DNA of 64,000 bases from Phytoactinopolyspora mesophila (GTDB lineage Bacteria > Actinomycetota > Actinomycetes > Jiangellales > Jiangellaceae). Each line of letters starts with the position of its first letter. Position 1 is the stretch's first letter. The notes beneath the pieces are model-generated. The model was given only the letters and a program-made list of their open reading frames with translations, was not told the DNA's origin and searched no databases. Location: contig NZ_WLZY01000011.1 in NCBI RefSeq assembly GCF_010122465.1, positions 62,001 to 126,000 on the forward strand. The letters run 5' to 3'. The position numbers and the translations under genes were made by a program. Below are positions 3,809 through 48,376 of the stretch, one piece after another.

Positions 3809-3849
3809 CACCGACCGCCTTCCATCACCTCGTGGAGTGGTCTTTCCTG

Positions 3850-4025
3850 TGCCGTGGCCGGTCTCCTGGCTAACGGGGTCTGGCGCCGTCCGGCCTGCCT
3901 TCCCAGGCAAACGTGCTGCCCAGTGGCTCCCTCCGCTGAGGGTACGGCCGGGGACTTCCCCGATCACAGTGGCGAGGGCCGCTCCGGTTTAGTACCGGAT
4001 TCCCGTACACCACGGCAGGCACCAC
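3850..4025 (-). ncRNA. Cobalamin riboswitch upstream of cobG
   Basis: On the minus strand the region carries the B12-box GCCAGGAGACCGGCC (3856-3870), the GCCACTG element followed by a GGGGA/TCCCC hairpin, a second GCCACTGGG, and the 5' GGGAATCCGGTACTAAACCGG helix. These parts in this order define a cobalamin-sensing leader RNA. It ends about 40 bases before the cobG start, so B12 binding probably hides the ribosome site or ends transcription. The outer ends are approximate. Confidence 0.92.
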
Positions 4026-4110
4026 TGTACGGTACGCCCGGTTACCTACCGCCGGAGTGGGCGTGGCGCCGGGGTGGGGCAGGCACACCTATACGAACTG
4101 AATGACGCAA

Positions 4111-4856: not shown

Positions 4857-4878
4857 CTCCTGTGCCGGACGTAACCTA

Positions 4879-4922
4879 GCGTCCTGCGACTTGAGCCCAA
4901 TAGCGCTCGCCCTGCAGGACGC
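4879..4922. repeat. 44-bp palindromic element, copy A
   Basis: Pattern: GCGTCCTGC, a middle with GAG..CC and GCGC, then CTGCAGGACGC. It lies between the convergent lipoprotein gene and the phosphatase pseudogene. A further half-site (GCGTCCTGCAGGG) follows at 4930-4942. It may also act as a bidirectional terminator. Confidence 0.85.
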
Positions 4923-4949
4923 AACGTAGCGTCCTGCAGGGAATCGGCT

Positions 4950-8043: not shown

Positions 8044-11000
8044 TTACTCCTCCAGGTCGCCCTCGGTTTCGAGTACAGCCTGCTGGAGGGCCTCGAGTGC
8101 GTCGGGCGACGGCTCGGCCCACAGGCCACGCTGGGCGGCTTCGAGCAGCCGTTCGGCCATACCCTTGCGCGCCCACGGGTTGGACTGCCGGAAGAAGTCG
8201 GCGACCTCGGGGTTGTTGATGTACTCCTTGGTCAGGGTCTCGTACATCCAGTCTTCGACGACGCCGGCCGTGGCGTCGTATCCGAAGAGGTAGTCAACCG
8301 TCGCCGCCATCTCGAAGGCGCCCTTGTAGCCATGCCGCTGCATGGCGGCGATCCATTTCGGGTTCACTACCCGGGCCCGGAAGACGCGGGCGGTCTCCTC
8401 GGACAGCGACCTGGTGCGCACGTGTTCGGTGACCGCGGAGTCGCCGACGTAGGCCGCCGGCGCGTCGCCGGTGAGATGCCGGACCATGGCGACCATGCCG
8501 CCGTGGTACTGGTAGTAGTCGTCCGAGTCGACGATGTCGTGCTCGCGGGTGTCCTGGTTCTTCACCGCGACCTGGATGCGCGAGTACGCCTTCTCCATGT
8601 CCTGCCGGGCCTCCACGCCGTCCAGTCCGCGGCCGTAGGCGTAGCCGCCCCAGACGGCGTACACCTCGGCGAGGTCAGCGTTGGTGCGCCAGTTCCGCGC
8701 GTCCACCAGCGGCAGCAGACCGGCGCCGTAGGCTCCCGGCTTGGAGCCGAAGATGCGTGCGGTGGCCCGGCGTGGATCGGTTCCAGCCGCGACGTCTTCG
8801 GCGACGTGCGTCCGCAGGTGGTTCGCGTCGGGTTCCTCATCCAGTTCGGCCACGGTCCGGATCGCGTCGTCGATCAACCCGACGACGTGCGGGAACGCGT
8901 CCCGGAAGAAGCCGGAGATCCGGATCGTGACATCCACGCGCGGCCGCGGCTCGCCGTCGAGCAGCAGTTCGTCGGCCGGGATGACCTCGAACCCGGTCAC
9001 TCGGCGCGACGCCTCGTCCCACACCGGGCGCACGCCGATCAGCCAGAGCACTTCTGCGAGGTCGTCGCCCTGGGTGCGCATCGCGGCCGTGCCCCAGATG
9101 GTGAGCCCCACCGACGTGGGCACAGCCCCGGTATCGGCTTTGTGCCGGCGCAGCAGCGAGTCGCCGAGCGCGACGCCGACGTCCCACGCGTTGCGCGACG
9201 GGATCGCCTTGGGGTCGACGGAGTACATGTTGCGACCGGTGGGCAACACATTGACCAGGCCGCGCGTCGGTGAACCGGAGGGGCCCGGCGGGACGTAGCG
9301 GTTGTCCAGCGCCCCGATGGTGTTGGTGATCTCGTCCGTGGTGCGGGCCAGCCGTGGGACCAACTGCTCGGCGCCGAAGCGCAGCACCTCGGCAACATTG
9401 TCCACGTCGGCGCCGAGTACATCGGCGACGACACTCTTGGCTTCCTGTGGTTGCCAGTCGCGGCGGGCCAGCTCCTCGACCAGCGCCCGAGCGGTGGTTT
9501 CGAGCAGGTCGACGACGTCCGACCCGGTCCGCGACGCCAGCGCGGGCGCGGTGGGGGCGTCGTCATTGTTGTGTCCTGCAGAGTGAGGGTCCTGGCGCTC
9601 GCTCTGCAGGACGCTGGCGATGCCGAACAGGGACCGGACACCGACGCTCTGCTCCACGGCAGCGCCCGGTTCGGCCAGGAGCACCTGCTCGTCCAGCCCG
9701 GCCCAGTCGGCGATGGCGCCACGCAGCCCACGATGCGCCGTCTCGCCGCCGAACACCTGTCGCGCCCGCAACACCGCGAGCACGTCGTTGACCAGTTCGT
9801 CGCCTTCCGGCGCGCGGCCGAGCACGTGCAAGCCGTCGCGGATCTGCACGTCCTTGATCTCGCATAGGTACCCGTCGATGTGCAGAACGAAATCGTCGAA
9901 GTCGTCCTCGCCGGGCATGTGTTCGGTGTGGAGGTCCCGGTGCAATTCGGCCTGGGTGACCAGCTCCCAGATCTGGTTCCGGACGGTGGGCGCCTTCGCC
10001 GGGTCCAGCTCGGCAACCGTCGCATACTCATCCAGGAGCTGCTCCAGCTTCGCCAGGTCGCCGTAGGTGTCGGCGCGGGCCATCGGCGGGATCATGTGGT
10101 CGATCAGGACGGCATGGGCTCGCCGCTTGGCCTGGGTGCCCTCGCCGGGATCGTTGACGATGAACGGGTAGATCAGCGGCAGATCGCCCAGGACGGCGTC
10201 CGGCGCGGAATCGTCGGACAGGCCGAGCCCCTTGCCGGGCAGCCACTCCAGTGTGCCGTGTTTGCCGAGGTGGACAACCGCGTGCGCGCCGAACCCGCCG
10301 TCGGTCACCGATTCCTGTAGCCACCGGTACGCGGCGACGTAGTGGTGGGAAGGCGCGAGGTTGGGGTCGTGGTAGATCGCCACCGGGTTCTCGCCGAAGC
10401 CGCGTGGCGGCTGGATCATCAGAACGACGTTGCCGAAGATCAGGCCCGCCAGCGCGATGGACGGCTCGTCGCCGCTGGTGTCGACGTAGAGCTCGCCGGG
10501 CGCCTCCCCCCAGGCCGCCACGATGTCCTCGCGCAGTGCCTCCGGGAGGGTCGCGAACCACTGTCGGTACTGCGAGGCGGGGATGCTGGCGGCCGCGCTG
10601 GCCAGCTGCTCTTCGGTCAGCCACTCGACGTCGTGCCCGCCCGCCGCGATCAGCTGATGGACCAGTGCGTCGCCTGGCGGAAGGTCCGCGCCGTCCTCAC
10701 CCGCGCCGCGCCCGAGCGCGTCGAGGTCCAGATCTCCGATGTCGTAGCCGGCCGCGCGCAGGCTGCGTAGCACTTCGACGGCGCTGGCCGGTGTGTCGAG
10801 CCCAACGGCGTTTCCGACGCGGGCGTGTTTGGTTGGATAGCTGGACAGCACCAGCGCGATCCGCTTCTGTGCATTGGGGGTGTGCCGGAGCCGGGCGGTG
10901 CGCACCGCGATGCCGGCCAGGCGCCGGGCGCGTTCGGGATCGGCGACGTAGTGCGGGACGCCGTCCGCGCCGACCTCCTTGAAAGAGAACGGGACGCCGA

Positions 11001-11898
11001 TGATCCGGCCGTCGAACTCCGGGAGCGCGACCTGAGTGGCCGCATCCATCGGGTTCATGGCGCCGTCGCTTTCGCTCCAGGCTTCCCGGGTGCTGGTCAG
11101 GGTGAGGCCCTGCAGCACCGTGACGCCGAGCTCGGTGAAGATGGCCGTGCTCCAGGCGTCGTCGTCCTCACCCGCCGCGGCCTTGCCGGCGACGAGCCCC
11201 CCGCTTGCCAGCACCGTGGTGATGACGACGTCGGCGCGGCCGAGCTGTTCGCGAAGACCCGCGTACTCTTCGCGGTCGGCGCCGCGCAGGGTGTCGGTGA
11301 AGATCGGTAGCGGGATGCCGCCGACGGCTTCGATCTGTTCGCACAGCGCGTCGATGAAGGCGGTGTTCCCGGAGAGTTCGTGTGAGCGGTAGAACACCAC
11401 GCCGATCACTGGCTTGCCCGGCTGGACGGGTTCACTGTCCAGGTCAGCGGCCTGTGCGCCGGGTGGCACGTGAATGCCGAAGCGCGGCTGCTCGGCGGGC
11501 GGCTCGAAGCCTTCACCGTTGAGCAGGATGGTGTCGCACAGGAACGCCGCCAGCTGCGCGAGGTTGACCGGCCCGCCCGCCACGAGGTAGCGCTGGGTCT
11601 CCGTCGCGACGCCGGACGGCACGGTGGACAACGCGTGCAACTGGGCGTCGGGGCTGGATTCGCCGCTGACGACGACGGTGGGGATGCCGGAGGCCCGGAC
11701 CGCGTCGAGTCCTTCGGGCCAGGCCTCGCGTCCGCCCAGAAGCCGGACCACGGCGACATCGACGTCCTCGAGCAGCGTGGAGACCTGCCCGGCAGGTGTA
11801 CGCGCTGGGTTGGCGACCATCCAGCGATCGTCCGCGCGGATCGCGGTCAGCAGATCTGTGTCGGCGGTGGACAGCAGCAGAAGGCGGGGCTGGCTCAT
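8044..11898 (-). CDS. cobN: Cobaltochelatase subunit CobN
   Basis: CobN is the large subunit of the ATP-dependent aerobic cobalt chelatase; with CobS/CobT-like AAA+ partners it inserts Co2+ into hydrogenobyrinate a,c-diamide. The 1284-residue protein is slightly longer than usual. The N-terminus is MSQPRLLLLSTADTDLL. Core motifs include IGVVFYRSHELSGNTAFIDAL, IALVLSSYPTKHARVGNAVGLD, HLGKHGTLEWLPGKGLGLS and YPFIVNDPGEGTQAKRR. Residues 762-776 are an in-frame insert encoded by a 44-bp palindrome (9571-9614) in a loop before the conserved VDLLETTARALVEEL. Start 11898 is chosen because anything longer enters the upstream riboswitch. Transcribed alone. Confidence 0.96.
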   Translation of the reverse strand: MSQPRLLLLSTADTDLLTAIRADDRWMVANPARTPAGQVSTLLEDVDVAVVRLLGGREAWPEGLDAVRASGIPTVVVSGESSPDAQLHALSTVPSGVATETQRYLVAGGPVNLAQLAAFLCDTILLNGEGFEPPAEQPRFGIHVPPGAQAADLDSEPVQPGKPVIGVVFYRSHELSGNTAFIDALCEQIEAVGGIPLPIFTDTLRGADREEYAGLREQLGRADVVITTVLASGGLVAGKAAAGEDDDAWSTAIFTELGVTVLQGLTLTSTREAWSESDGAMNPMDAATQVALPEFDGRIIGVPFSFKEVGADGVPHYVADPERARRLAGIAVRTARLRHTPNAQKRIALVLSSYPTKHARVGNAVGLDTPASAVEVLRSLRAAGYDIGDLDLDALGRGAGEDGADLPPGDALVHQLIAAGGHDVEWLTEEQLASAAASIPASQYRQWFATLPEALREDIVAAWGEAPGELYVDTSGDEPSIALAGLIFGNVVLMIQPPRGFGENPVAIYHDPNLAPSHHYVAAYRWLQESVTDGGFGAHAVVHLGKHGTLEWLPGKGLGLSDDSAPDAVLGDLPLIYPFIVNDPGEGTQAKRRAHAVLIDHMIPPMARADTYGDLAKLEQLLDEYATVAELDPAKAPTVRNQIWELVTQAELHRDLHTEHMPGEDDFDDFVLHIDGYLCEIKDVQIRDGLHVLGRAPEGDELVNDVLAVLRARQVFGGETAHRGLRGAIADWAGLDEQVLLAEPGAAVEQSVGVRSLFGIASVLQSERQDPHSAGHNNDDAPTAPALASRTGSDVVDLLETTARALVEELARRDWQPQEAKSVVADVLGADVDNVAEVLRFGAEQLVPRLARTTDEITNTIGALDNRYVPPGPSGSPTRGLVNVLPTGRNMYSVDPKAIPSRNAWDVGVALGDSLLRRHKADTGAVPTSVGLTIWGTAAMRTQGDDLAEVLWLIGVRPVWDEASRRVTGFEVIPADELLLDGEPRPRVDVTIRISGFFRDAFPHVVGLIDDAIRTVAELDEEPDANHLRTHVAEDVAAGTDPRRATARIFGSKPGAYGAGLLPLVDARNWRTNADLAEVYAVWGGYAYGRGLDGVEARQDMEKAYSRIQVAVKNQDTREHDIVDSDDYYQYHGGMVAMVRHLTGDAPAAYVGDSAVTEHVRTRSLSEETARVFRARVVNPKWIAAMQRHGYKGAFEMAATVDYLFGYDATAGVVEDWMYETLTKEYINNPEVADFFRQSNPWARKGMAERLLEAAQRGLWAEPSPDALEALQQAVLETEGDLEE
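9571..9614. repeat. 44-bp palindromic element, copy B, in frame inside cobN
   Basis: Same 44-bp layout as the intergenic copies. Read in the cobN frame it encodes (A)SVLQSERQDPHSAGH, nearly the peptide that the copy in cobQ encodes. Confidence 0.9.
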
Positions 11899-11939
11899 AG
11901 CGTCCTCTCTCGGGCGTTTCCCGCACCCGGATCGGTGGC

Positions 11940-12112
11940 GACGTCGGGCAGTGTCCTGGCTCCCGGATCGGCGCCGGTTCTTCGGCCTTCCCAGGCGCCC
12001 TGTCTTGGACGGAGCACCCAGTGGCCTCATGGTGAGAGCCGACTCCCCGGTCACAGTGGCGGGACCGCCCCGGATTCAGGCGCGAGCGCCCTCACCGGTG
12101 TTCCTGCCGTGA
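11940..12112 (-). ncRNA. Cobalamin riboswitch upstream of cobN
   Basis: On the minus strand the region shows the B12 box GCCAGGACACTGCCC (11946-11960), the GCCACTGTGACCGGGG element, GCCACTGGG, and a CGCCTGGGAAGGC-type hairpin. This is the same architecture as the leader of cobG. The B12 box ends about 47 bases before the cobN start. Ends are approximate. Confidence 0.92.
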
Positions 12113-12155
12113 CGTCGGATGGTCGGTGCCGATCCTATCTGCCGGACGTCGCGGT

Positions 12156-12199
12156 GCGTCCTGCAGGTTGAGGCCTGGGGCGCTCGGGGCGCAGGACGT
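12156..12199. repeat. 44-bp palindromic element, copy C
   Basis: Intergenic copy between the cobN riboswitch and the AbiEi/DUF559 gene: GCGTCCTGCAGG, GAGGCCTGGGGCGC middle, and a degenerate right arm GCGCAGGACGT. Confidence 0.85.
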
Positions 12200-12229
12200 T
12201 GCGCGGGAGTCGCGGGACGAGTGCTTCTT

Positions 12230-12273
12230 GCGTCCTGCCGGCTGATGCCCAGGGCACTCGGTCTGCAGGACGC
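12230..12273. repeat. 44-bp palindromic element, copy D
   Basis: Second intergenic copy 30 bp after copy C: GCGTCCTGCCGG left arm, TCTGCAGGACGC right arm. A half element (GGGGCGCAGGACGTTG) follows at about 12290-12305. Confidence 0.85.
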
Positions 12274-12375
12274 CACACCGCGGGGGAGCTGGGGCGCAGG
12301 ACGTTGGGCGCGGGTTGTCCACAGATGGGTCGCCGCATCTTGAACGGGCTTGGGCCTGCGGGAAGGGTCACACCC

Positions 12376-13287
12376 ATGCGCTATCCAGACGTTGAACGGC
12401 TCGCCGCCGACCAGAGCGGTGTCATCTCCCGACGCCAGCTCTACTCGCTTGGCCTGACGCGGTGGCAGGTCAAGGCCCAGCTGCGGGCTGGCAGGTGGCG
12501 CTCACACGGCCGGCAGACCATCGCCGTGCACACCGGAACCCTTGATCAGTCCGCATTGTGGTGGCGTGCCGTCTGGGAGGTTGGCGCCGATGCGGCGCTA
12601 GATGGAGTGAGCGCCCTGCAAGCAGCCGGGCTGCGCGGATTCGAGGCACCGGTCCTGCAGGTGTCGGTATCTCGTGGCAGCCGGTACCGCAAGCTGCCGG
12701 GCGTGCGGGTCTACGAGACGCGGCGCAGGAAGCCGGACGATGTGCTCGGCCACGGCCTGCCGCGTGTCCGCCCGGAGATCGCTGCCGTGCGAGCGGCACT
12801 CTGGGCGGTGACGAACCGCCAGGCTGCTTTGTTGTGGCTGATGCCGATCCAGCAGCGGATCTTTGGTGCAGAAGCGTTGAGTGAAGCGTTCTCGTCGGTC
12901 AAACGGCACCGCCGCCGTGCCTTCCTCCGTACGGTCCTGGCTGATCTCGTGAATGGCGTCCAGTCCATGGGCGAGCTGGACTTCGCCCGCATGTGCCGTG
13001 CCCGCGGCTTGCCCGAACCGACCCGTCAGGTAGTCCGGCGTGGCCCGAATGGGCGGATCTACCTGGACGTCTACTGGGATCAATGGGGGATTGTCGTGGA
13101 GATAGAGGGAGCACAGCACCTGGATCCGGGCATGGCGATCAGCGATGCGCTACGGCAGAACCATCTCTTCGTCCATGGTGACGGGGTGCTGCGCATCCCG
13201 GTGATTGGGCTTCGGCTGGAGCCAGACGCGTTCATGAATCAGGTTGCGCGACTGCTGGCTCGCTGCCGGCGTGCCGCTGCCGCCTGA
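12376..13287 (+). CDS. AbiEi-type HTH plus DUF559 (VSR-like endonuclease fold) protein
   Basis: A 303-residue protein. Residues 1-50 (ERLAADQSGVISRRQLYSLG, LTRWQVKAQLRAGRW) match the winged-helix domain of AbiEi-type antitoxins. The C-terminal 100 residues (MGELDFARMCRARGLPEPTR, YLDVYWDQWGIVVEIEGAQH) match DUF559, whose ExxGxxH core resembles very-short-patch-repair endonucleases. Such proteins occur in many copies in actinomycetes; their role is not established and may be regulatory, defensive or mobile. Start 12376 begins exactly at the AbiEi domain, with GGAAGG upstream. A longer version would translate the palindromes. It is bracketed by 44-bp palindromes on both sides. Confidence 0.8.
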   Translation: MRYPDVERLAADQSGVISRRQLYSLGLTRWQVKAQLRAGRWRSHGRQTIAVHTGTLDQSALWWRAVWEVGADAALDGVSALQAAGLRGFEAPVLQVSVSRGSRYRKLPGVRVYETRRRKPDDVLGHGLPRVRPEIAAVRAALWAVTNRQAALLWLMPIQQRIFGAEALSEAFSSVKRHRRRAFLRTVLADLVNGVQSMGELDFARMCRARGLPEPTRQVVRRGPNGRIYLDVYWDQWGIVVEIEGAQHLDPGMAISDALRQNHLFVHGDGVLRIPVIGLRLEPDAFMNQVARLLARCRRAAAA

Positions 13288-13307
13288 ACCCCGCGGGACG
13301 CGACTCA

Positions 13308-13351
13308 ACGTCCTGCAGGAGGAGGCCTGGGGTGCACCCTCTGCAGGACGC
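13308..13351. repeat. 44-bp palindromic element, copy E
   Basis: Lies between the convergent DUF559 and GNAT genes: ACGTCCTGCAGG, GAGGCCTGGGGTGC middle, TCTGCAGGACGC right arm. A degenerate half-site (ACGTTCTGCAACG) follows. Confidence 0.88.
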
Positions 13352-13374
13352 AACCTGACGTTCTGCAACGCGAG

Positions 13375-13851
13375 TCAATCGGACAGACGCGAAGTCGGCT
13401 CCGGTCGACGCTCCGCGCGCTCCATGTACCTGTTGTGCTCGGGTGCGGTGAAGCCGAACTTGGCGTAGAGATCGTGCCCGTCGGCGGTGTGCAGCATCCA
13501 TCGCAAGTCGGCGCCGGCACCGTCCTCGATCATCGCCGCCACCAGCGATGCCCCCACGCCCCTGCCGCGGTGGGCGAAGTCGACGAATACGTCGGCCAGG
13601 TAGGCGATGGACACGCCGTCGGACAGCGCGCGCGCAAAGCCGACCATTTCCCCGGCTTCCGCGCCGTCCCCGGCCGGCTCGTACGCACCTACGACGCGCC
13701 ACGCACCATCGATCTGTGCATCGACGATCTCGCGACTGCGCCAACGCCCCCAATACGCGTGTTCGGAGAGGAAACTCCAGACCACCTCGCGGTCGACTCG
13801 CGAGGCGTCATCGTCGAACTCGTACCCGGCAAACTTCCGCGTGACTGTCAC
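13375..13851 (-). CDS. GNAT family N-acetyltransferase
   Basis: A 158-residue acetyl-CoA-dependent acetyltransferase; the substrate is unknown. The acetyl-CoA pyrophosphate loop is HRGRGVGASLVAAMIEDG, preceded by the beta strand AYLADVFVDFAH. The C-terminal ADGHDLYAKFGFTAPEHNRYMER is the usual end of single-domain GNAT proteins that act on small molecules. The GTG start at 13851 gives the N-terminus (M)TVTRKFAGYEFDDD; the ribosome site is weak. It is flanked on both sides by 44-bp palindromes. Confidence 0.88.
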   Translation of the reverse strand: MTVTRKFAGYEFDDDASRVDREVVWSFLSEHAYWGRWRSREIVDAQIDGAWRVVGAYEPAGDGAEAGEMVGFARALSDGVSIAYLADVFVDFAHRGRGVGASLVAAMIEDGAGADLRWMLHTADGHDLYAKFGFTAPEHNRYMERAERRPEPTSRLSD

Positions 13852-13891
13852 GACCTGATTTTCTCATTCGCCACCTGCAGGACGTCACGGT

Positions 13892-13935
13892 AAGTCCTGC
13901 ACGGCGAGGTCTGGAGCGCACGCCCCGCAGGACGC
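13892..13935. repeat. 44-bp palindromic element, copy F with flanking half-sites
   Basis: Full copy AAGTCCTGC to CCGCAGGACGC. A right half-arm precedes it (CCTGCAGGACGT, about 13874-13885) and a left half-arm follows (ACGTCCTGCAG, about 13942-13952), so 13872-13952 looks like three partly nested units. Confidence 0.85.
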
Positions 13936-13983
13936 AAGATAACGTCCTGCAGCGCCGTCAACGCTGGCCGCCGCCGGATGGCT

Positions 13984-14505
13984 TCAGGCAGCCTGTAGCC
14001 GCGCGAACGCCTCCAGGCTGTCCGGCGTCCACGGCCAGACATCGAGTTTTGCCTGGATTTCGCCGACGGTCAGGAACGAGTACCAGTCAACCTCTTCGGC
14101 CTGCGGATTGACCAGGGCGTCGCAGCGCACCTCGTAGACCGCGGCCCACCAGGTGAAGTCCGCATCCTCATACAGGAATCGGAGCAGCGGGGTGGGTGCG
14201 GGCAGTCCCGAGACCCCGAGTTCCTCCTCGGCTTCGCGATGCGCCGCATCGTCATACGTCTCTCCCGCACGCACAACGCCGCCGACGAACATGTCATACC
14301 GTGACGGGAAGATCAGCTTGGACGCGGTCCGGCGGTGCACGAAGATCGCGCCGCCGGCGTTGCGTACCAGGACGAATGTCGACCGATGCCGCAGCCGGTG
14401 TGCGTAGGCGTCGGCCCGCCGTGCCTGGCTGACGACGCGGTCGGACTTGTCGACGATGTCGAGTAGCTCGTCCTCGGGGCGTTCTTGCACCACATCGTCA
14501 TCCAA
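13984..14505 (-). CDS. NUDIX hydrolase
   Basis: A 173-residue NUDIX protein. It carries the Nudix box GGVVRAGETYDDAAHREAEEELG, with the REAEEELG helix that binds Mg2+. The N-terminal layout (ELLDIVDKSDRVVSQARRADAYAHRLRHRST) resembles isopentenyl-diphosphate isomerase-like and YfcD-type Nudix proteins, which act on nucleoside or isoprenoid diphosphates; the substrate is not known. The start is uncertain: TTG at 14505 or GTG at 14493, neither with a strong ribosome site. It stands upstream of the GNAT gene on the same strand, separated by repeats. Confidence 0.87.
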   Translation of the reverse strand: MDDDVVQERPEDELLDIVDKSDRVVSQARRADAYAHRLRHRSTFVLVRNAGGAIFVHRRTASKLIFPSRYDMFVGGVVRAGETYDDAAHREAEEELGVSGLPAPTPLLRFLYEDADFTWWAAVYEVRCDALVNPQAEEVDWYSFLTVGEIQAKLDVWPWTPDSLEAFARLQAA

Positions 14506-14644
14506 CCAGAGCTACGCCCAGCGGTGCTTCCGTAGGTTCACGTGCAGGACAAGCCCGCCGTCGAACAGGATCGTTGTCGGATCCCGGCATCTTTGGGAGC
14601 CCGGGGCGTCGGCTGCCGCGGCCGATGGAGATAGCCTGTGCGGC

Positions 14645-15163
14645 GTGAAACCGATGATCGTGTGGCTGAACGGAACGTTCGGCGCGGGAAAGACCACGGC
14701 AGCCGAGGAGCTCGTCGAGGTGATGCCTGATGCCAGGACGTTCGATCCGGAGTGTGTCGGCTTCATGCTCCGGCGGTTCATCACCGAGCCGGTCGGAGAT
14801 TTCCAGGATTGGCCGGCGTGGCGCGCGCTGGTGACCGAGACAGCCCATCAGATCCTCCAGCATTATGGCGGGACGCTGGTGGTGCCTATGACGTTGCTGC
14901 GGCGCGAATATGCAAACGAGATATTCGCCGGATTACGCGAGCACGGTATCGATGTGCGGCATGTGCTGCTGCACGTCGACGACGACGAGCTGGTGCGGCG
15001 CATCGAATCCGACCAGGTCGAATCCGGGGCGCGGGACTGGCGGCTGGAGCATATTTCGCCTTACCGAGACGCGTTGGCCTGGCTGCGAGACGATGCCGCG
15101 GTCGTCGACACGACACACATGGCGCCGGTAGACGTGGCGCAGAAGGTCGTCGGCCTGCTCTGA
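14645..15163 (+). CDS. P-loop ATPase / kinase-like protein
   Basis: A 172-residue P-loop protein. The N-terminus MIVWLNGTFGAGKTTAAEEL holds a Walker A motif (GTFGAGKT). Later parts include VVPMTLLRREYANEIFAGL, where a nucleoside or shikimate kinase would have its second strand, and HVDDDELVRRIESD. Related small actinomycete proteins are annotated as AAA-family ATPases or tunicamycin-resistance-like kinases. The substrate is unknown. The GTG at 14645 is preferred over the ATG three codons later; there is no strong ribosome site for either. Confidence 0.75.
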   Translation: MKPMIVWLNGTFGAGKTTAAEELVEVMPDARTFDPECVGFMLRRFITEPVGDFQDWPAWRALVTETAHQILQHYGGTLVVPMTLLRREYANEIFAGLREHGIDVRHVLLHVDDDELVRRIESDQVESGARDWRLEHISPYRDALAWLRDDAAVVDTTHMAPVDVAQKVVGLL

Positions 15164-15168
15164 TCCCG

Positions 15169-15450
15169 TCAGGTCTCGGCGCGGCAGTCGGAGGTCAGCG
15201 CCGTCAGGTCCGAGTCCGCCAAGGCGGTTTGAGCCGCATCAACCGCGGCCGATGCGGTGGCCCACTCGGACTCGATGACTTCGGCCAGGCTTTCCGCCGC
15301 GCGCAGGGCCTGTTCACAGGATTCGGGAAGCGACGTGTCCGTCCCGCCCGCAGTGGCTCCGATGAGCAAGCCGATCGCCAGGCTGAGTATGACCGCCGCG
15401 ACGGCAAACAGCAGGTTGCGGGGTCGGCTGGTGTGGTCCGAGTCGTTCAT
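15169..15450 (-). CDS. Small single-pass membrane protein downstream of jetC
   Basis: A 93-residue protein with a basic N-terminus (MNDSDHTSRPRN), one hydrophobic helix (LLFAVAAVILSLAIGLLIGA) and a short outside helical region rich in Ala and Glu with two Cys (PESCEQALRAAES, LTSDCRAET). The Cys pair could form an extracytoplasmic disulfide. GGAACGAGG precedes the ATG at 15450. It lies 89 bases downstream of jetC on the same strand, where Wadjet operons normally carry jetD. It is clearly not JetD. Function unknown. Confidence 0.65.
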   Translation of the reverse strand: MNDSDHTSRPRNLLFAVAAVILSLAIGLLIGATAGGTDTSLPESCEQALRAAESLAEVIESEWATASAAVDAAQTALADSDLTALTSDCRAET

Positions 15451-15539
15451 AGCGACCTCGTTCCTTCCGGACGCTGACCGGAGTCCTACCAGTTTCCCCC
15501 TGATACGCGCGTGTTTGATGGCATTTTCACAACAAACGG

Positions 15540-18500
15540 TCAGTCTGCCGGGACGCTGGCGGCGGTACGGCCCTGGCGGGGAGTCAAGTCGCTGAAGGTT
15601 GCCGACGTCGCGTTGGACCGGGCGCCATCGGCCGCTACCCGTTTGTCGACCAGCACGACCTGACCGATGAACGGTTCGAGGATCCCGGACATCCGGATCG
15701 GGGCGGCAATGATCATCTGGAATCCGAACTCGTCGAACGCGGCCAGCGCCTGCTGGGAGAACGCCTCGTCGGACTTGCTGAACGCCTCGTCCAGCATCAA
15801 CGGAGCGAAATGCGGCCGGCCCTCGGAGTCCGGGTCTGCGAGGTTGTAACTCAGCGCCGCAGCCAGACAGAACGCCACCAGCTTTTCCTGCTCGCCGCCG
15901 GAACTCGACGCGGTGTTCCGATACGTCGACACGATGTCGTGATCGGCACCTTTTTCGATGCCGTAGAAGAAGTAGCTGGTCCGGACGTCCAGCACGGCAT
16001 CCCGCCACCGCCGGGACTCGGCGTCGTCGTCGGTGAAGCGTGTCATCAAGGCACGCACCCGGCGGAATTGCCCCAGCAGCTTCTCCGGGTCACGTCGTGC
16101 GGCGGGCGCGTCGCGCAGCAAGGCATCGACGTTGCCCCGGAACTCCTTGACCTCGGCGGGTGGCGTCGCCTGGTAGGCGATTTGGAGGTGGGTTCCCGGA
16201 TTGAACTCGACGCGGGAAAGCCCCGAGTTGACCATGTCGATCCGGCTCTGGATCTCGTTGGCCGCGTTCTCGATCGCGCGTTGCAAGACGCTGATCGACG
16301 GCACCATGTCTTCACTGATCATTTGCTGGAAACGGCCCATCGCATTGGGCAGGCGACGGCGCACGATATCGGCGTGCAAAGCGGCGAAGTCCGCGCCGGA
16401 GCGGTCGACGTCTCCGCTGGCGTCGGGCGCGGAATCGGGCCATTCCTCGACGAACCGCTCGATGGCTGACTTCAGCCGCGCGTGTGCGTAGCGGCGGTCG
16501 GCTTCGGCCGCGTCTCGTCGTCGTTCGAGCTCTTTGCGGAACGCGACCCGGACCTGGGCGAGGTTGTCGGGCGTGACCGCGAGCTCGAGATCGGCGAACA
16601 CCTGGTCGAGGTAGGAGCGGTGAGCGTCGTTGCTGGTGCCGTGTGGTTCGGCGGTCTCGTTCTCAAGCATGTTGAGCCAGCTGGTCTGCCGGGCGCGCAG
16701 GGCGCTGAGCTTGTTCCGCAGGTCTGAGCGGGCATCGGCAACGGATTGCCACCGTGCCTCGGCTGCGCCGCGGTCGTCTTCGAGCCGCTGCAGGTCGACG
16801 TTGTCCGCTCTGAGCTGCTCGATGCGCTCGGCGTAGCCCTGTGCGCTAGCCGTGGCCGACCAGTGGTCGAGCTGCATCCAGCTCGTGAACCCTTCGAGTT
16901 GCGTGGCGGCCTCGATGGTGGACTCCACCTGGCGGTAGCGCTGGTCCAGCTCGTCGGCCTCCGCTCGAGCCTGCTTCTCGGCCTCGGCCAGGCGGGCGAC
17001 CTCGGCTTCCAGGGCCGCAACTTTTGCTCGGATGTCGCCACCGAGGATGTATGACGCCGGATCGGTGAGCGCCCGGCGATCGTCCTTGCGGTAGTGGCTC
17101 CCGGGCAGTTTCACGGTGCCGTTCAGGGTGACCGCTGTGCGGTGCTGATCGAGTTCTTCCGAGGTCTGGACGCAGACGTGGTCGAACCTGCCGGCCAGCT
17201 GGCCGGCCAGCCACGGGCCGGCGGTGTGGGTCTCGTCGACAGTGAGCTTGCTGGCCAGCGTGCCTGGCTCGGCCCGGTCAGCCGCCGTGCTCTCGGCGGG
17301 TACGACGCTGTACTCGACCACGCCGCGCATGTCGTGGTTGTCGATGAACTGCTGAACCGCCCGTTGATGCGCGGCAGGGACCAGCAGCCGCAATCCGAAG
17401 GCCCGGAGCACCTTCTCAGCCGCCGGACGCCATTGTTCCTCGGCTTCGTCCACGTCGATGAGTTCCGCCGCGTACGGCAGTTCGGTGACGGCCACGCCCG
17501 CGCCGTCGGCGATCATCTCCCGGCGGTCGGCTTCGCGGCGGGGTATCAATGAACGGGATGCCTGTAGCGTCGCAAGCTCGGTGGCCTTGGTCTCATGCTG
17601 CTTGCGGGCCTGGCCCGAGGCGGCGAACACGGCATGCCGCCGCGGCTCGATCTCTGCCTTGTCCTGGTGGGCCCGCTCCAGAATGCGGGGGAGCTTCTGC
17701 CGCAGCGCGACGAAGGTCTGCTCGTCCTCGGGGCACGGCTCACCGATGCGCTCGACCAGCGTGCGGTACGTGCGGTGGGTCCGCTCGCGCGCCTCCACCT
17801 CGCGATTGGCGGCGTCGAGGCGCAGTTTCACTTCCTCCAGGGCTTGACCTTCGCGCCGCAGCTGCTCGTCCAAGGACACGTAGGCCGACTTCGCTTCCTC
17901 ATAGCGGCGCTCCTGCTCGCCGAGGTCGGCGTCGAGGGACTTGATCTCGTGGTCGAGCGCATCCAGTGCTTCTCGGATCGCCTGCACATGGACGCCGCGC
18001 ACGTAGTGCTCCATTGGGGCACCCAGCAGAGTCTCGGCGAGGTTGTGGGTCTGCCCTGACTCCCGGTAGGCCGTCCAGCTCTCGGGCACCTCGCGCAGTA
18101 CCTTCTCCTGTGCGTGCGCCCGGCGGGCCGTTTCGTATGCCTCGTTCAGCGGGGTGAACGCATCCAGCATCTTCTGTGCCGCGTCGAAGGTGCCTGGTTC
18201 GTCGAGCATGTTGCCGCGGATGAAGAGGTTCAGGTCACCGACGTTCTTCATCGCCTTCGCCTTGCCCAGAAGGGACAACGCGGTCTTCGAGTTGCCGAGG
18301 CCGATGCGTTTGCCGAGTTCTCGCACGTAGGCAGCCTGGCTGTCCGGATAGTGCGCAGGGTGGGTCTGCTTGAACCAGCGGGTATCGAAGTTGCGCTGCG
18401 CCCACTCCTCCAGCACGGTGAGGTCGAGGTGGCCGTGGTGCAGCTGGTACATCGTTTTCAGCGATGCGCCGTCGGTTTCGGCACCGGTGAACCACTTGAC

Positions 18501-18911
18501 GACGACGGCGGTGGTGATGGCGTCCACCCCGTCGGCGTAGGTGGCCGCGATCGCCGACCAGGTGGGTTTGCCGCCGCGCAGGTAGCGCACTTTGGACCGG
18601 TTGTGCTCGTCGTTGGTCTCCGACCACGCACCTCGCACGTAGTCCGCGACGCTGCGGGTGCCCTGCTTCGCCCCTCGCACGTTCAGGTCGGCCGATGCGT
18701 TGAAACGCTGGTCATGGGTCGGTAGGAGCACGGCCGAATGGGCGTCCATCAGAGACGATTTCCCTGACCCGGACGGGCCGGTGAACAACACACCGCGTTC
18801 TTCGACGGGAAGGTCCTTGTACCCGTTGAACGTGCCCCAGTTGATCACCTGCAGTCGCACCAGCCGGAACTGGCCGAGGAAGATGGTGCGCTTGCCGATG
18901 TCGTCAGTCAT
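15540..18911 (-). CDS. jetC: Wadjet JetC: MukB/SMC-like ATPase
   Basis: A 1123-residue SMC-type ATPase. The N-terminal head contains FRLVRLQVINWGTFNG and Walker A GPSGSGKSS (45-53). A long heptad-rich coiled coil fills the middle, with a hinge-like part near the centre. The C-terminal head has the signature SSSGGEQEKLVAF (from about 1002) and Walker B HFAPLMLDEAF (about 1034). In Wadjet (MksBEF/EptABC) this motor extrudes DNA loops and recognises small circular plasmids. ATG 18911 overlaps the jetB stop by 8 bases and begins at the family N-terminus. No JetD gene follows, which is unusual. Confidence 0.93.
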   Translation of the reverse strand: MTDDIGKRTIFLGQFRLVRLQVINWGTFNGYKDLPVEERGVLFTGPSGSGKSSLMDAHSAVLLPTHDQRFNASADLNVRGAKQGTRSVADYVRGAWSETNDEHNRSKVRYLRGGKPTWSAIAATYADGVDAITTAVVVKWFTGAETDGASLKTMYQLHHGHLDLTVLEEWAQRNFDTRWFKQTHPAHYPDSQAAYVRELGKRIGLGNSKTALSLLGKAKAMKNVGDLNLFIRGNMLDEPGTFDAAQKMLDAFTPLNEAYETARRAHAQEKVLREVPESWTAYRESGQTHNLAETLLGAPMEHYVRGVHVQAIREALDALDHEIKSLDADLGEQERRYEEAKSAYVSLDEQLRREGQALEEVKLRLDAANREVEARERTHRTYRTLVERIGEPCPEDEQTFVALRQKLPRILERAHQDKAEIEPRRHAVFAASGQARKQHETKATELATLQASRSLIPRREADRREMIADGAGVAVTELPYAAELIDVDEAEEQWRPAAEKVLRAFGLRLLVPAAHQRAVQQFIDNHDMRGVVEYSVVPAESTAADRAEPGTLASKLTVDETHTAGPWLAGQLAGRFDHVCVQTSEELDQHRTAVTLNGTVKLPGSHYRKDDRRALTDPASYILGGDIRAKVAALEAEVARLAEAEKQARAEADELDQRYRQVESTIEAATQLEGFTSWMQLDHWSATASAQGYAERIEQLRADNVDLQRLEDDRGAAEARWQSVADARSDLRNKLSALRARQTSWLNMLENETAEPHGTSNDAHRSYLDQVFADLELAVTPDNLAQVRVAFRKELERRRDAAEADRRYAHARLKSAIERFVEEWPDSAPDASGDVDRSGADFAALHADIVRRRLPNAMGRFQQMISEDMVPSISVLQRAIENAANEIQSRIDMVNSGLSRVEFNPGTHLQIAYQATPPAEVKEFRGNVDALLRDAPAARRDPEKLLGQFRRVRALMTRFTDDDAESRRWRDAVLDVRTSYFFYGIEKGADHDIVSTYRNTASSSGGEQEKLVAFCLAAALSYNLADPDSEGRPHFAPLMLDEAFSKSDEAFSQQALAAFDEFGFQMIIAAPIRMSGILEPFIGQVVLVDKRVAADGARSNATSATFSDLTPRQGRTAASVPAD

Positions 18912-19647
18912 TGTTGTCGATCCCATCTGCGACGAGGCCTTCCGGGATCGCCTCGCCACGGGCGATAGCGCGGTACCTCTGTGTCAGGGCTTCCACGCGA
19001 TCCGCGGTCAGGATCGAGGTGATGGCCCCGTGGATGACATAGCGGTCGGTGCCTTTGACCGGCTTGATGATGGCGGCGTCGTCGAGCGACTTGATGGCGG
19101 CGAGGATCTTCTTGTGGAACGACGCTTCGTCGGTGTCGTCGGCGCGCTTGTACGCCATCATGTAGTCGATCATGTCGGTGGATTCGACGACCGGGCTGTC
19201 CGGCGCGGCCAGGTACTGCTGGTACAGGTACAACGCAAGGGTGCTGGCGGCGAGGCTGAGCGTCTTGGTGCGCAGCACGGCGCGGCTGTGTGGGCTCGGG
19301 TCGTCGGCCTGACGGGTGAAGGCATACCGGTGCTCATGGTTGATCTCGAGGATCAGGCCGAGCTCACACAGGCGGCTGCGCAGCACCTCCTCGTGCTGCA
19401 GGATGATCGCCCAGTGCCGGTTGTCCTTCCCGCCCACGTGCGGAGCGGCGACGAGCTCCTGCAACGTCCAGCACACCTCTGGCGGCAGCTGGCTCGTGTC
19501 TCCGTCGAAGCGCGGCCCGTGCGTGGTGCTGCCGACCCGGGCGCCCGGTGGACGAGCGGAGTCGTCGAACACGTCTGTGGGATCGAGTGTCGCCGGTGGG
19601 ACGGCAGTGGCCTCAGCGAACAGGCCGTCGTCGTCAACGTCAGGCAT
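18904..19647 (-). CDS. jetB: Wadjet JetB: DUF4194 (MukE-like) subunit
   Basis: A 247-residue protein of the DUF4194 family, the MukE-like winged-helix partner that binds the kleisin JetA. Typical segments are CWTLQELVAAPHVGGKDNRHWAIILQHEEVLRSRLCELGL and SDMIDYMMAYKRADDTDEASFHKKILAAIKSL; the C-terminus holds the winged-helix strand DRYVIHGAITSILTADRVEALTQRY. The first 45 residues are disordered and acidic. The ATG overlaps the jetA stop by 8 bases and the stop overlaps jetC by 8 bases, so the three genes form one tightly coupled operon. Confidence 0.9.
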   Translation of the reverse strand: MPDVDDDGLFAEATAVPPATLDPTDVFDDSARPPGARVGSTTHGPRFDGDTSQLPPEVCWTLQELVAAPHVGGKDNRHWAIILQHEEVLRSRLCELGLILEINHEHRYAFTRQADDPSPHSRAVLRTKTLSLAASTLALYLYQQYLAAPDSPVVESTDMIDYMMAYKRADDTDEASFHKKILAAIKSLDDAAIIKPVKGTDRYVIHGAITSILTADRVEALTQRYRAIARGEAIPEGLVADGIDNND

Positions 19648-21190
19648 CCATCGCCTCTTCCAGAAGGAACGCTTGTTTCCGCAGGATCCGGTGGCGGGTC
19701 ATCGGCGCCGCGGGGTCGGCCACCGGCTCGGCGAACACGGCGGAGGGAAGGAAGATGTCGCGCCGGCCCTGCCGGGTGTGGACGCTGGCGCGTACCCGCA
19801 CCTGAGGATCCACTTCACCCCAGCGCGCGGCGAGCGACCACAAGCCGATGACGTCTCCGGTGCGGGGGCGTTCGAGCTGGTCCAGCACCTCGGACAGGGT
19901 GGCCGGACCAGCGCCGGCGCTCAATGTGGTGTTGACCGCCGAGCGCAGGGAGGCCCAGTCGATGGACTCCTGCCCGGTGAGTGTGGCTGGATCGACCGGG
20001 AACTCGTCGGCGGGCGAGGTGAGCGGGTCGGGTGGGTCACCGATGCCTTCGTGCATCCGGAGGCGCCCCACTGACGACGTGTCGGCGCTGCTCATCGGGA
20101 TGGCGAAGCCGGTGTCGCGACCGCCGTGGGTGTGTTGGAACGCCTCTGCGGCCGCCGCCTGGGCCTCGTTGACCAGCACCCGCATGCTGCGGTAGTGCAG
20201 AGCGTCTCCTCCGCGCACGAAGTTGTTCATCCGCCGGAACGCCACGGCGCGCGCTTCTTCGACCTCGCGAACCCGGTCCCACATCGCGTCGATGAAACCG
20301 GTCAGCGAATCAGCGATGTCGGGTCTGAGGCCCTCGACGTGGGAGACGATCTCGGCGATGTCCGTCTCGAGCTGGGCACGTTGCGACGGTGTGGCGATGA
20401 GCGTGGCGAAAGCGCGGAACGCCTGCCCTTCAGCGGCCTCGGAGATGACGTCGTGGCCTTCGAACATCCGGTCCAGCGAATCGGCGAAGGCAGCCGGATC
20501 GTCGGCGAGACTTTGGCGGATGAGCGCCGTGGTGTTGGCTTGCATCTGCTCGCCGTAGCGGGCGATGTCGGCGGGGATCCGCTCGATCAGCTGGGTGAGC
20601 GCGGTGACCTTGTCGACGAGATCACGCTGGTCCACGTCCTGGGTGGTGTCGTCGTCGAGTGCCTCGCGCTGTGCGGTGAGCATGGCGATCTGATCGTCGA
20701 GCGCCTGCCGGCGGGCGGCGGGATCGGGGCTGGCCTCGATGGCGATCTGCCGGATCTCGGCCATGACCATGGAGAGCGCGGATTCGGTCGCGAGGGAGGT
20801 GTGCCGCTGCAGGTTGGACATCTGGCGGACGGCCTGGCTCGCGCCGGAGGTCAGCTGGTAGCGCTCGGTGCGGGTGTCAGGATCGATACTGCGCCGGACC
20901 CAGCCCTTCTTCGTCCACCGGGTCAGCAGGGTGTCGGCATCCGGGGCGGGGGTGAGGCCGGGTTCGTCGTCCGCGGGCAGGTAACCGCGCATCGGACCAG
21001 CCAGGTCAGCGTCGATCTTGGCGGTGAGAGATTCTCCGTCGACGATCCGGCCGTCGCCGAGGTGCGCCGCCATCAGCGCGAGGTGCAGCAGCGCGTCGTT
21101 GGAGCGGAGCAGCGACATGGTGACGTCAGCTGCGGCGTTGGCGCGAAACTCCAGCCATAGTTGCTCGGCGCTTCGCTCCTTCCCCCTCAC
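19640..21190 (-). CDS. jetA: Wadjet JetA: DUF3375 (kleisin, MukF-like) subunit
   Basis: A 516-residue DUF3375 protein, the kleisin that bridges the JetC heads. The N-terminus LWLEFRANAAADVTMSLLRS with NDALLHLALMAAHL matches the family start. The middle is helical (RQALDDQIAMLTAQREALDD, YGEQMQANTTALIRQSLADD), and the C-terminus DIFLPSAVFAEP is characteristic. The GTG at 21190 is chosen because the conserved N-terminal helix would be lost from the ATG at 21118; the ribosome site is poor. jetA lies 63 bases downstream of cobQ on the same strand, so the operon may be partly read from the cobD-cobQ transcript. Confidence 0.9.
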   Translation of the reverse strand: MRGKERSAEQLWLEFRANAAADVTMSLLRSNDALLHLALMAAHLGDGRIVDGESLTAKIDADLAGPMRGYLPADDEPGLTPAPDADTLLTRWTKKGWVRRSIDPDTRTERYQLTSGASQAVRQMSNLQRHTSLATESALSMVMAEIRQIAIEASPDPAARRQALDDQIAMLTAQREALDDDTTQDVDQRDLVDKVTALTQLIERIPADIARYGEQMQANTTALIRQSLADDPAAFADSLDRMFEGHDVISEAAEGQAFRAFATLIATPSQRAQLETDIAEIVSHVEGLRPDIADSLTGFIDAMWDRVREVEEARAVAFRRMNNFVRGGDALHYRSMRVLVNEAQAAAAEAFQHTHGGRDTGFAIPMSSADTSSVGRLRMHEGIGDPPDPLTSPADEFPVDPATLTGQESIDWASLRSAVNTTLSAGAGPATLSEVLDQLERPRTGDVIGLWSLAARWGEVDPQVRVRASVHTRQGRRDIFLPSAVFAEPVADPAAPMTRHRILRKQAFLLEEAMDA

Positions 21191-21253
21191 GCTTCGACAC
21201 CATAATCGATGCCCGGCCAGGACGACGACTCGTGCTGGACACTCTGGTGTTTG

Positions 21254-22795
21254 CTAGGAGTTGACCTGTGATGACGCGATGAACGGGAGGTCTTTGGGCG
21301 GGCCATCCTCGATCAGCTGGAGGAGTGCCTGGGTATCGAGGTGTTCGGTCACGGCGTCGGCGAGCCGGTCGAGCATCAGCTCGCGTTGTTCGGTGAATCC
21401 GGGACCACCGGTGGGTCGCCAGGACCGGCCGGCTTCGCCGGCGATTTCGGTGAGCCAGGCGCGGCGGAAGGCGTCGTTCTCGAACGCGCCGTGCCACATC
21501 GTGCCCCAGACGCTGCCGGCGCGGTAGCCGTCGAGAAACCGTTCGCTAGGGCGGTGCGTGCCGGTGGCGACGCCGTGGTGGATCTCGTAGGCCTGGACGG
21601 GGTGGCCGCGCCATGATCCCTGCGGGCGGCCCAGCTGCTTCTCGGTGCTGAACATCACCTCGGCCGGAAGCAGCCCGAGCCCGTCCACGGACTGCCCGGA
21701 CTCGACCGGATCGACGATCTTCTCGGTGAGCATCTGGTAGCCGCCGCAGACACCGAGCACGGGGCGGCCAGACCGGGCGCGAGCGACGACGGCCGTGTCC
21801 AGCCCGCGTTCCCGCAGCCAGGCCAGGTCGGACACGGTCGCCCGGCTGCCGGGGAGAACCGCAAGATCGGCGCCGGCGACGACGTCGGGGTCGGCGGTCA
21901 GGGTCACGGTCACGCCCGGCTCCGACGCGAGGGCGTCGACGTCGGTGGCATTCGACACCCGCGGGAAACGCACGACGGCGACCGTCAGCGGCCGTTCGCT
22001 GCGTCCTGCCAACCGAGCGTCCGGGCCCTCACTCTGCAGGACGCTGGCGCGTTGCCAGCCGCCGGCGGCGAGGGCGTCCTCGGAGTCGATCCACACGCCA
22101 TCGAGCCACGGCAGTACCCCGTACACCGGCCGGCCGGTGAGTTCGGTGATCCGTTCCAGTCCTGGTCGCAGCACGTCGACGTCTCCGCGGAACTTGTTGA
22201 CGACGAAACCGGCCAGCTGCCGTTGATCGGCAGCGTCCAACAGCGCCAGCGTGCCGAACATGGCAGCCAGCGACCCACCGCGGTCGACGTCGGCCACGAC
22301 CAGCACCGGCAGATCGGCATGACGGGCGAGACCCATGTTGACGTAGTCACCGGCCCGCAGATTGATCTCGGCCGGGCTGCCCGCTCCTTCGCAGATGACG
22401 ACGTCGAACCGGCTGCGCAGATCGGCCAGCGCCTCGAAGGCGGCTTGGGCCAGCTTCTGCCGGCCGGTCGTGTACTCACCGCTGCGCAATGTGCCGTGCG
22501 CGCGGCCCATCAGCACGATGTGGGACGTCCGGTCACTGCCGGGTTTCAGCAGCACCGGATTCATGGCGGCCTCGGGTGTCACCCGGGCGGCCATCGCCTG
22601 CACCCACTGCGCCCGCCCGATCTCTGAGCCATCGGGGCAGACCATGGAATTGTTGGACATGTTCTGTGCCTTGAATGGCGCCACCCGTATTCCTTGGCGG
22701 GACAGCCACCGGCAGAGGCCGGAGGCCACCAGGCTCTTGCCGGCATCCGACGTGGTCCCCGCCACCAGCAGCCCGGCGCCGTGTGTGCTGGTCAT
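21254..22795 (-). CDS. cobQ: Cobyric acid synthase CobQ
   Basis: A 513-residue ATP-dependent amidase that makes four amidations (positions b, d, e and g) of adenosylcobyrinate a,c-diamide. The N-terminal ATPase domain shows GLLVAGTTSDAGKSLVASGL, KAQNMSNNSMV and ICEGAGSPAEINL with VVADVDRGGSLAA. The C-terminal glutaminase domain has VLGVCGGYQML, with the catalytic Cys, and YEIHHGVA. Residues 251-265 are an insert encoded by a 44-bp palindrome (22001-22044), between VWIDSEDALAAGGW and VAVVRFPRVSNATD, which are adjacent in relatives. The start overlaps the cobD stop (ATGA), so the two are coupled. Confidence 0.96.
   Translation of the reverse strand: MTSTHGAGLLVAGTTSDAGKSLVASGLCRWLSRQGIRVAPFKAQNMSNNSMVCPDGSEIGRAQWVQAMAARVTPEAAMNPVLLKPGSDRTSHIVLMGRAHGTLRSGEYTTGRQKLAQAAFEALADLRSRFDVVICEGAGSPAEINLRAGDYVNMGLARHADLPVLVVADVDRGGSLAAMFGTLALLDAADQRQLAGFVVNKFRGDVDVLRPGLERITELTGRPVYGVLPWLDGVWIDSEDALAAGGWQRASVLQSEGPDARLAGRSERPLTVAVVRFPRVSNATDVDALASEPGVTVTLTADPDVVAGADLAVLPGSRATVSDLAWLRERGLDTAVVARARSGRPVLGVCGGYQMLTEKIVDPVESGQSVDGLGLLPAEVMFSTEKQLGRPQGSWRGHPVQAYEIHHGVATGTHRPSERFLDGYRAGSVWGTMWHGAFENDAFRRAWLTEIAGEAGRSWRPTGGPGFTEQRELMLDRLADAVTEHLDTQALLQLIEDGPPKDLPFIASSQVNS
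22001..22044. repeat. 44-bp palindromic element, copy G, in frame inside cobQ
   Basis: GCGTCCTGCC left arm and TCTGCAGGACGC right arm, exactly 44 bp. In the cobQ frame it encodes (A)SVLQSEGPDARLAGR, matching the peptide in CobN and lying in the same orientation and frame. Confidence 0.9.
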
Positions 22796-44670: not shown

Positions 44671-44687
44671 ACAAGAGCCCCCACTCG

Positions 44688-44752
44688 TGTTGATCATGGC
44701 CACGTGACGCCTCTTCGAGGTCGAATAGGTGCCATCTGCCCATGATCAACGC
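44688..44752. repeat. Palindrome of the TGATCATGG type, copy 1
   Basis: GTGTTGATCATGG at the left and CCATGATCAACGC at the right form a long stem with a degenerate inner part. It is closely related to the element at 48291-48356. It may end or attenuate transcription after the beta-subunit gene. Confidence 0.75.
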
Positions 44753-44774
44753 AGGAGGGGGCGGAGGAGGGAAC

Positions 44775-48297: not shown

Positions 48298-48356
48298 TCA
48301 TGGCCACGTGACACCTATCGGACGCCGAACACGCGTCACGTGCCCATGATCAACGC
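48291..48356. repeat. Palindrome of the TGATCATGG type, copy 2
   Basis: GCGTTGATCATGG-CCACGTGAC and GTCACGTG-CCCATGATCAACGC form an almost perfect stem of about 22 bp. The coxL stop TGA (48295-48297) is within the left arm. The same core is at 44688-44752. Likely a terminator or attenuator between coxL and the ThDP enzyme gene. Confidence 0.8.
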
Positions 48357-48376
48357 GAAAATGTGGAGGAGTGAAT

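Follow-up and report, generated by a model that had tools for sequence, protein, structure and literature searches.

Short palindromic elements that lie between genes and also in frame inside unrelated protein genes, where they encode a recurring peptide, are described from Rickettsia (the Rickettsia palindromic elements, RPEs) and Wolbachia in PMC10969869 and PMC2229807; the latter gives a length of 105–146 bp for RPEs. PMC2229807 also presents ERIC/RU-1, RU-2, RU-3 and the Correia MITEs as small inverted-repeat elements that are mainly intergenic, with some copies in frame in genes. For REP sequences and BIMEs we used the definition and the stop codon distances given in PMC12306157.

The window analysed here is a stretch of 64,000 nucleotides from Phytoactinopolyspora mesophila (genome G000; the other sampled members of the genus are G001 to G004). 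A sequence-only reading of it had claimed that a palindromic element is inserted in frame in both cobN and cobQ, in the same frame and encoding the same peptide, and both elements were confirmed; the residue numbers given for them, 762 and 251, start one too high (761 in CobN, counted from 11898, and 250 in CobQ). The core is a 40 bp palindrome, GTCCTGC-N26-GCAGGAC, and the cobN and cobQ copies read ASVLQSE...AG(R/H). Seven exact matches to GTCCTGC-N{18,45}-GCAGGAC occur in the window, where 0.03 would be expected from 100 shuffles. The copies and their two host genes are as follows.

4881–4920, no strand assigned: intergenic copy with convergent genes on either side; outer arms at 4864–4870 (one mismatch) and 4931–4937.
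8044–11898 (likely start), minus strand: cobN, CobN/Mg-chelatase family, host of an element.
9573–9612 (core), minus strand: element in frame inside cobN, encoding ASVLQSERQDPHSAGH / VLQSERQDPHSAGH; orthologous copies in G004, G003, G002 (2 arm changes).
12158–12197, no strand assigned: intergenic, on the upstream side of the cobN riboswitch; the region upstream of cobN also holds the element in G004 (one mismatch) and G003 (two copies).
12232–12271, no strand assigned: intergenic, the second of the two copies on the upstream side of this riboswitch; exact pattern match.
13310–13349, no strand assigned: intergenic, flanked by convergent genes whose stop codons lie 22 and 25 nt away; each outer arm has one mismatch; G004 and G003 have matching copies.
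13894–13933, no strand assigned: intergenic four-arm copy; outer arms at 13877–13883 and 13944–13950; matching copy in G003.
21254–22795, minus strand: cobQ (cobyric acid synthase), which carries an element.
22003–22042 (core), minus strand: element in frame inside cobQ, encoding ASVLQSEGPDARLAGR / VLQSEGPDARLAGR, in the linker between CbiA and GATase_3; orthologous copies in G004, G003 and G002, decayed copy in G001.

A search of the window against Rfam returned two cobalamin riboswitches only, on the minus strand at 3839–4029 and 11949–12106, one of them directly upstream of cobN; a known RNA family was rejected on that ground. The window also holds three adjacent minus-strand genes (15540–21190) that match the PADLOC models JetC, JetB and JetA (Wadjet type I), an 80 nt inverted repeat pair (44685–44764 and 48279–48358, 81% complementary, 3.5 kb apart) whose sequence is unrelated to the element family, and a 15-base tandem repeat, GACCAAGCCACCACC, at 57288–57407.

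Genome-wide, G000 contained 67 matches to the same arm pattern, against 5 for a reversed-pattern control, and the spacer was exactly 26 in 65 of the 67 arm pairs with spacers of 18–45 (control, 1). The single spacing, together with counts far above the controls, indicates a true repeat family and not a chance occurrence. In the half-site profile, where the arms are exact by construction as the set was selected on exact arms, TTGC lies outward of the arms and a purine-rich stretch inward, followed further in by an invariant G at position 13 and a near-invariant G at position 15. The element thus has terminal inverted repeats made of 7 bp exact arms plus a TTGC-like extension, and the flanks of the stem are GCAAC-like (equivalently GTTGC-like). 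Its centre is asymmetric, with CG on one side and GC on the other, so that each copy has an orientation. Tandem copies repeat with a 50 bp period, and a 74 bp four-arm form, GCAGGAC-N10-GTCCTGC-N26-GCAGGAC-N10-GTCCTGC, also occurs: both outer arms were present in 15 of 65 copies in G000 and one in a further 3, compared with 0 and 1 of 260 at shifted control positions. The form with both outer arms is rarer elsewhere (2/20 in G003, 0/30 in G004, 0/20 in G002 and 0/5 in G001).

The family is specific to the genus among the genomes sampled. Exact arms with the N26 spacer numbered 65 in G000, 40 in G004, 30 in G003, 24 in G002 and 5 in G001; in the other 94 genomes of this search a single match was seen in 7, about the rate of the reversed-pattern control. 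A strict pattern with a GWG...CWC core gave 58, 37, 29, 16 and 2 matches, respectively, and was present in 5/5 genus members and 0/388 other genomes sampled from the class. It was found in no viral contig, and a phage source was rejected on that ground.

Insertion into proteins is a minority fate of the copies. With genes called by a simple in-house program, 58 of the 65 copies in G000 are intergenic, 3 are clearly coding and 4 are ambiguous. A check for further inserts, which had been proposed from the sequence, added four hosts to CobN and CobQ in this genome, namely a GH2 beta-galactosidase, ArgB (at the N-terminus), a NirD-like Rieske protein encoded behind nirB (N-terminus) and HisI (C-terminus), the last three being judged by homology. 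Clearly coding copies in DNA from five species, some of them orthologous to each other, were in frame 0 in 10/10 cases; of 12 ambiguous copies at ORF edges, 9 shared that frame, and the 3 in a different phase scored poorly as coding sequence on one side. Of the three frames, frame 0 is the one that can be tolerated: it has a stop in 1/280 copy-strands and a cysteine in 17%, compared with 6/280 and 100% for frame 1 and 93/280 and 74% for frame 2. In CobQ the insert lies between the Pfam domains CbiA (10–235) and GATase_3 (271–442). A structural model of the 513 residues built from 31 sequences, which superseded a poor one from 5 sequences (pLDDT 55.8), had a mean pLDDT of 88.4 and fell below 50 only at 246–265, covering the insert, and at 510–513, so the insert, which lies in the interdomain linker, is the sole internal stretch of this kind; modelling of where the loops lie had been suggested from the sequence. 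A second in-frame element follows IHHGVA in the cobQ genes of G004 (L149:5705), G003 (L152:9420) and G002 (L155:15447), and is absent from the CobQ of the window.

The expectation that relatives lack the segments held outside the genus. The CobQ motif was found in 0/80 relatives from other genera, whose loci (1.53 Mb) contained no exact element, and the CobQ linker measured 20–27 residues in the 21/80 relatives that could be parsed, compared with 35 in G000. At the GH2 site, for which 12 of the loci retrieved were used, G000 has 16 residues; 7 of the 8 non-genus orthologues aligned have 1–2, and the eighth (G020) has 15 that are unrelated. In G001 and G002 this stretch runs to 19 and 42 residues, with no recognisable element. 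In an argB survey covering 11/22 genomes, the gene of G003 showed the same start context, carried no element and was 60 nt shorter than that of G000, that of G001 also lacked the element, and G004 and G002 had copies just upstream of argB rather than inside it. The sister genome G005 has CobN and CobQ linkers of similar length but no palindrome. Within the genus the expectation failed, as the cobN segment is shared by G000, G004, G003 and G002, the first cobQ site by the same four with a decayed copy in G001, and same-place copies also occur at the second cobQ site (G004, G003 and G002) and at two intergenic sites. The CobN and CobQ copies are old and vertically inherited within the genus.

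The likeness to RPEs pointed out in the sequence-only reading was borne out, in that one palindrome family sits both between genes and, in a single frame, within unrelated enzymes, with the segment absent outside the genus; it is drawn from descriptions of RPEs rather than from their sequences. The differences are that RPEs measure about 105–150 bp, compared with a 40 bp core, a 50 bp period and a 74 bp four-arm form here, and that the host is a GC-rich actinomycete in which the arms are near-invariant and the interior is free. In the mainly open-access literature on actinomycete coding palindromes, palindromic repeats and RPEs we found no description of this family, which agrees with the claim that it had not been reported in actinomycetes; as far as the literature searched goes, it is undescribed.

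The arms and the interior have evolved very differently. In 23 pairwise comparisons of orthologous copies the arms differed at 25/322 sites and the interiors at 250/598; this count leaves out nirD, the copies upstream of cobN, the decayed CobN copy of G001 and the decayed GH2 copies of G001 and G002, and its arm figure would rise if decayed copies were included. In coding copies the arm forces the codons GCA (7–8% of alanine codons) and GGA (11% of glycine codons). Among identical aligned residues in four species, GGA was shared in 15/15 pairs inside elements versus 10/162 elsewhere in CobN and CobQ, and GCA in 12/19 versus 3/122; the species pairs in both the arm and the codon tests are not independent. 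Damaged copies are scarce in G000: in an 891 kb sample chosen around copies, the half-site GCGTCCTGC occurred 113 times, 92 times with an exact partner arm and 3 times with one carrying 1–3 mismatches, and contig C11, taken nearly whole regardless of copies, held 8 exact copies and 0 with 1–3 arm mismatches and a full core. Sites of attC or DNA-uptake type were rejected as models, since the half-site is not abundant alone and 92/113 occurrences are in exact pairs. The decayed copies of G001 and part of G002 indicate that the arm constraint is not genus-wide.

Arm position 5 is a weak point, having drifted in 11 of the 29 relaxed-pattern copies of G002; 9 of these 11 variants are changed in one arm only, one is a complementary double change and one a non-complementary double. 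The cobN copy of G002 carries a complementary double change. At stem positions 8–12 in G000, pairing was no more frequent than for independent halves, and a pooled oriented set (n = 103, including orthologues and tandem duplicates) showed a slight pairing excess at positions 8–10, where 59, 83 and 16 of 2000 shuffles reached the observed value. A hairpin-only constraint was rejected as the main force because of the missing covariation in G000 and the 9/11 one-sided variants in G002. The pattern of substitutions favours sequence recognition over pairing as the constraint on the arms, with which a hairpin would still be compatible.

Two copies on different contigs of G004 are identical over 40 bases, and in the 5 kb compared their similarity is confined to 71 nt, a block shorter than an RPE; this suggests that the element may be, or have been, mobile. 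It is the only convincing dispersed identical pair, as an identical pair in G003 is part of a 161 nt duplication that starts at the element edge. Tandem duplicates of the element also occur. Duplicated gene-end fragments in G003 (L255:2738 and 4345; L152:17231 and L153:1850) have edges at or inside the element, as though rearrangements had broken there. When the flanks of 140 copies were scanned for direct repeats, the excesses were no more than small across the many offsets compared, and no target-site duplication stood out. ERIC/RU-1, RU-2, RU-3 and Correia elements are about 100–200 bp long and most of these families have TA ends or target duplications, neither of which was evident here. 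The element also resembles REP/BIME sequences, which are likewise short, imperfect, multicopy palindromes, mostly extragenic, with many near stop codons and some in tandem. However, the family described here has in-frame protein copies, its flank is GTTGC-like whereas that of REP sequences is GTAG, and the Y1/RAYT transposase family (PF01797) was found in 0/22 genomes of the bacterial family searched (controls positive in 5/14); a REP/RAYT system was rejected because PF01797 is absent.

Taken together, the family is best read as RPE-like, with arms that are probably a recognition site for a putative factor. On balance we favour the view that it is a REP/MITE-like, non-autonomous, dispersible short palindrome, with arms read by such a factor and the peptide a by-product. 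Copies would have been spread by some recombination or transposition activity, and those in protein genes would survive only in loops, linkers and termini and only in the open, hydrophilic, mostly cysteine-free frame. The arms would persist since a factor of the genus's own, binding DNA or RNA in a sequence-specific way, would read them, so that selection would act on the DNA. Against this reading, no mobilising enzyme or arm-binding protein was identified, no target-site duplication stood out, a single convincing dispersed pair was seen and the arm constraint does not extend to the whole genus. It is also possible, though we hold this only tentatively, that the element serves the genus as an address in its DNA (or RNA), under selection and read by a protein, sometimes in the four-site 74 bp form. 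Its sequence requirement would then be strong enough to persist inside enzymes of essential pathways and would thereby impose a 15-residue peptide on CobN, CobQ and other proteins; G001 and the sister genus would have lost the reading protein, and their sites would have decayed.

We consider it unlikely that the copies are plain selfish or relic DNA in the manner of Rickettsia, inserted, tolerated, now functionless and slowly decaying. Such an origin would account for elements that lie in frame within loops and termini of unrelated enzymes, and for the copies that have clearly decayed in G001 and partly so in G002, but G000 is almost without arm-damaged copies, as contig C11 illustrates, despite widely divergent interiors (on average 13.8 of 26 positions identical), and rare codons are retained in the arms. 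Near-invariant arms around a diverging interior are not what would be expected of plain decaying selfish DNA. The words ‘selfish’ and ‘mobile’ rest on little here, with one dispersed identical pair and no mobilising enzyme found.

Position relative to genes could suggest a repeated, mostly bidirectional transcription terminator or 3′-end RNA hairpin, which we think improbable. In G000, a stop codon lies within 30 nt of the start of 33/58 intergenic copies compared with a null of 14.3%, and convergent gaps take 16/58 copies but hold 10.6% of intergenic bases. Of the copies that follow a single gene, 50 could be assigned an orientation, and 34 of these point the same way with respect to that gene (23 more were unassignable). 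However, an expectation matched for gap already places 27.2/58 within 30 nt, indicating that much of the stop codon effect reflects copies in short gaps behind genes; the corresponding observed and gap-matched values were 21/25 and 14.9 in G004, 8/15 and 5.5 in G003, and 12/18 and 6.3 in G002. The copies are thus palindromic, extragenic for the most part and near gene ends, with a modest gap-matched excess. The convergent enrichment was absent from the targeted loci of G003 and G004, the stem is followed by no U-run but by the GCAAC-like flank, stem positions 8–12 lack covariation in G000 with a weak excess at 8–10 only in the pooled set, and copies within cobN, cobQ and the GH2 gene would cut their own transcripts. 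A regulon was likewise rejected, as Pfam analysis of 17 of the genes ending beside copies, and of the host genes, revealed no common pathway. Selection on the encoded peptide itself, for a function at the protein level, is highly improbable: the same peptide does recur in several enzymes, but the majority of copies are intergenic, codon choice and not residues alone is kept, the double change in the CobN copy of G002 turns Leu into Pro with the matching base change in the opposite arm, and the stretch in CobQ is predicted to be disordered.

Coding palindromes have so far been regarded as peculiar to Rickettsia and Wolbachia. Their occurrence in free-living actinomycetes of high GC content is a second case, and it suggests that short palindromes in DNA may extend enzymes by a peptide in bacteria of very different kinds. 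The constraint on the arms at the DNA level makes the idea of a selfish and tolerated element testable: does some factor read the arms, and can the sequence of a protein be shaped by selection that acts on a site in the DNA?
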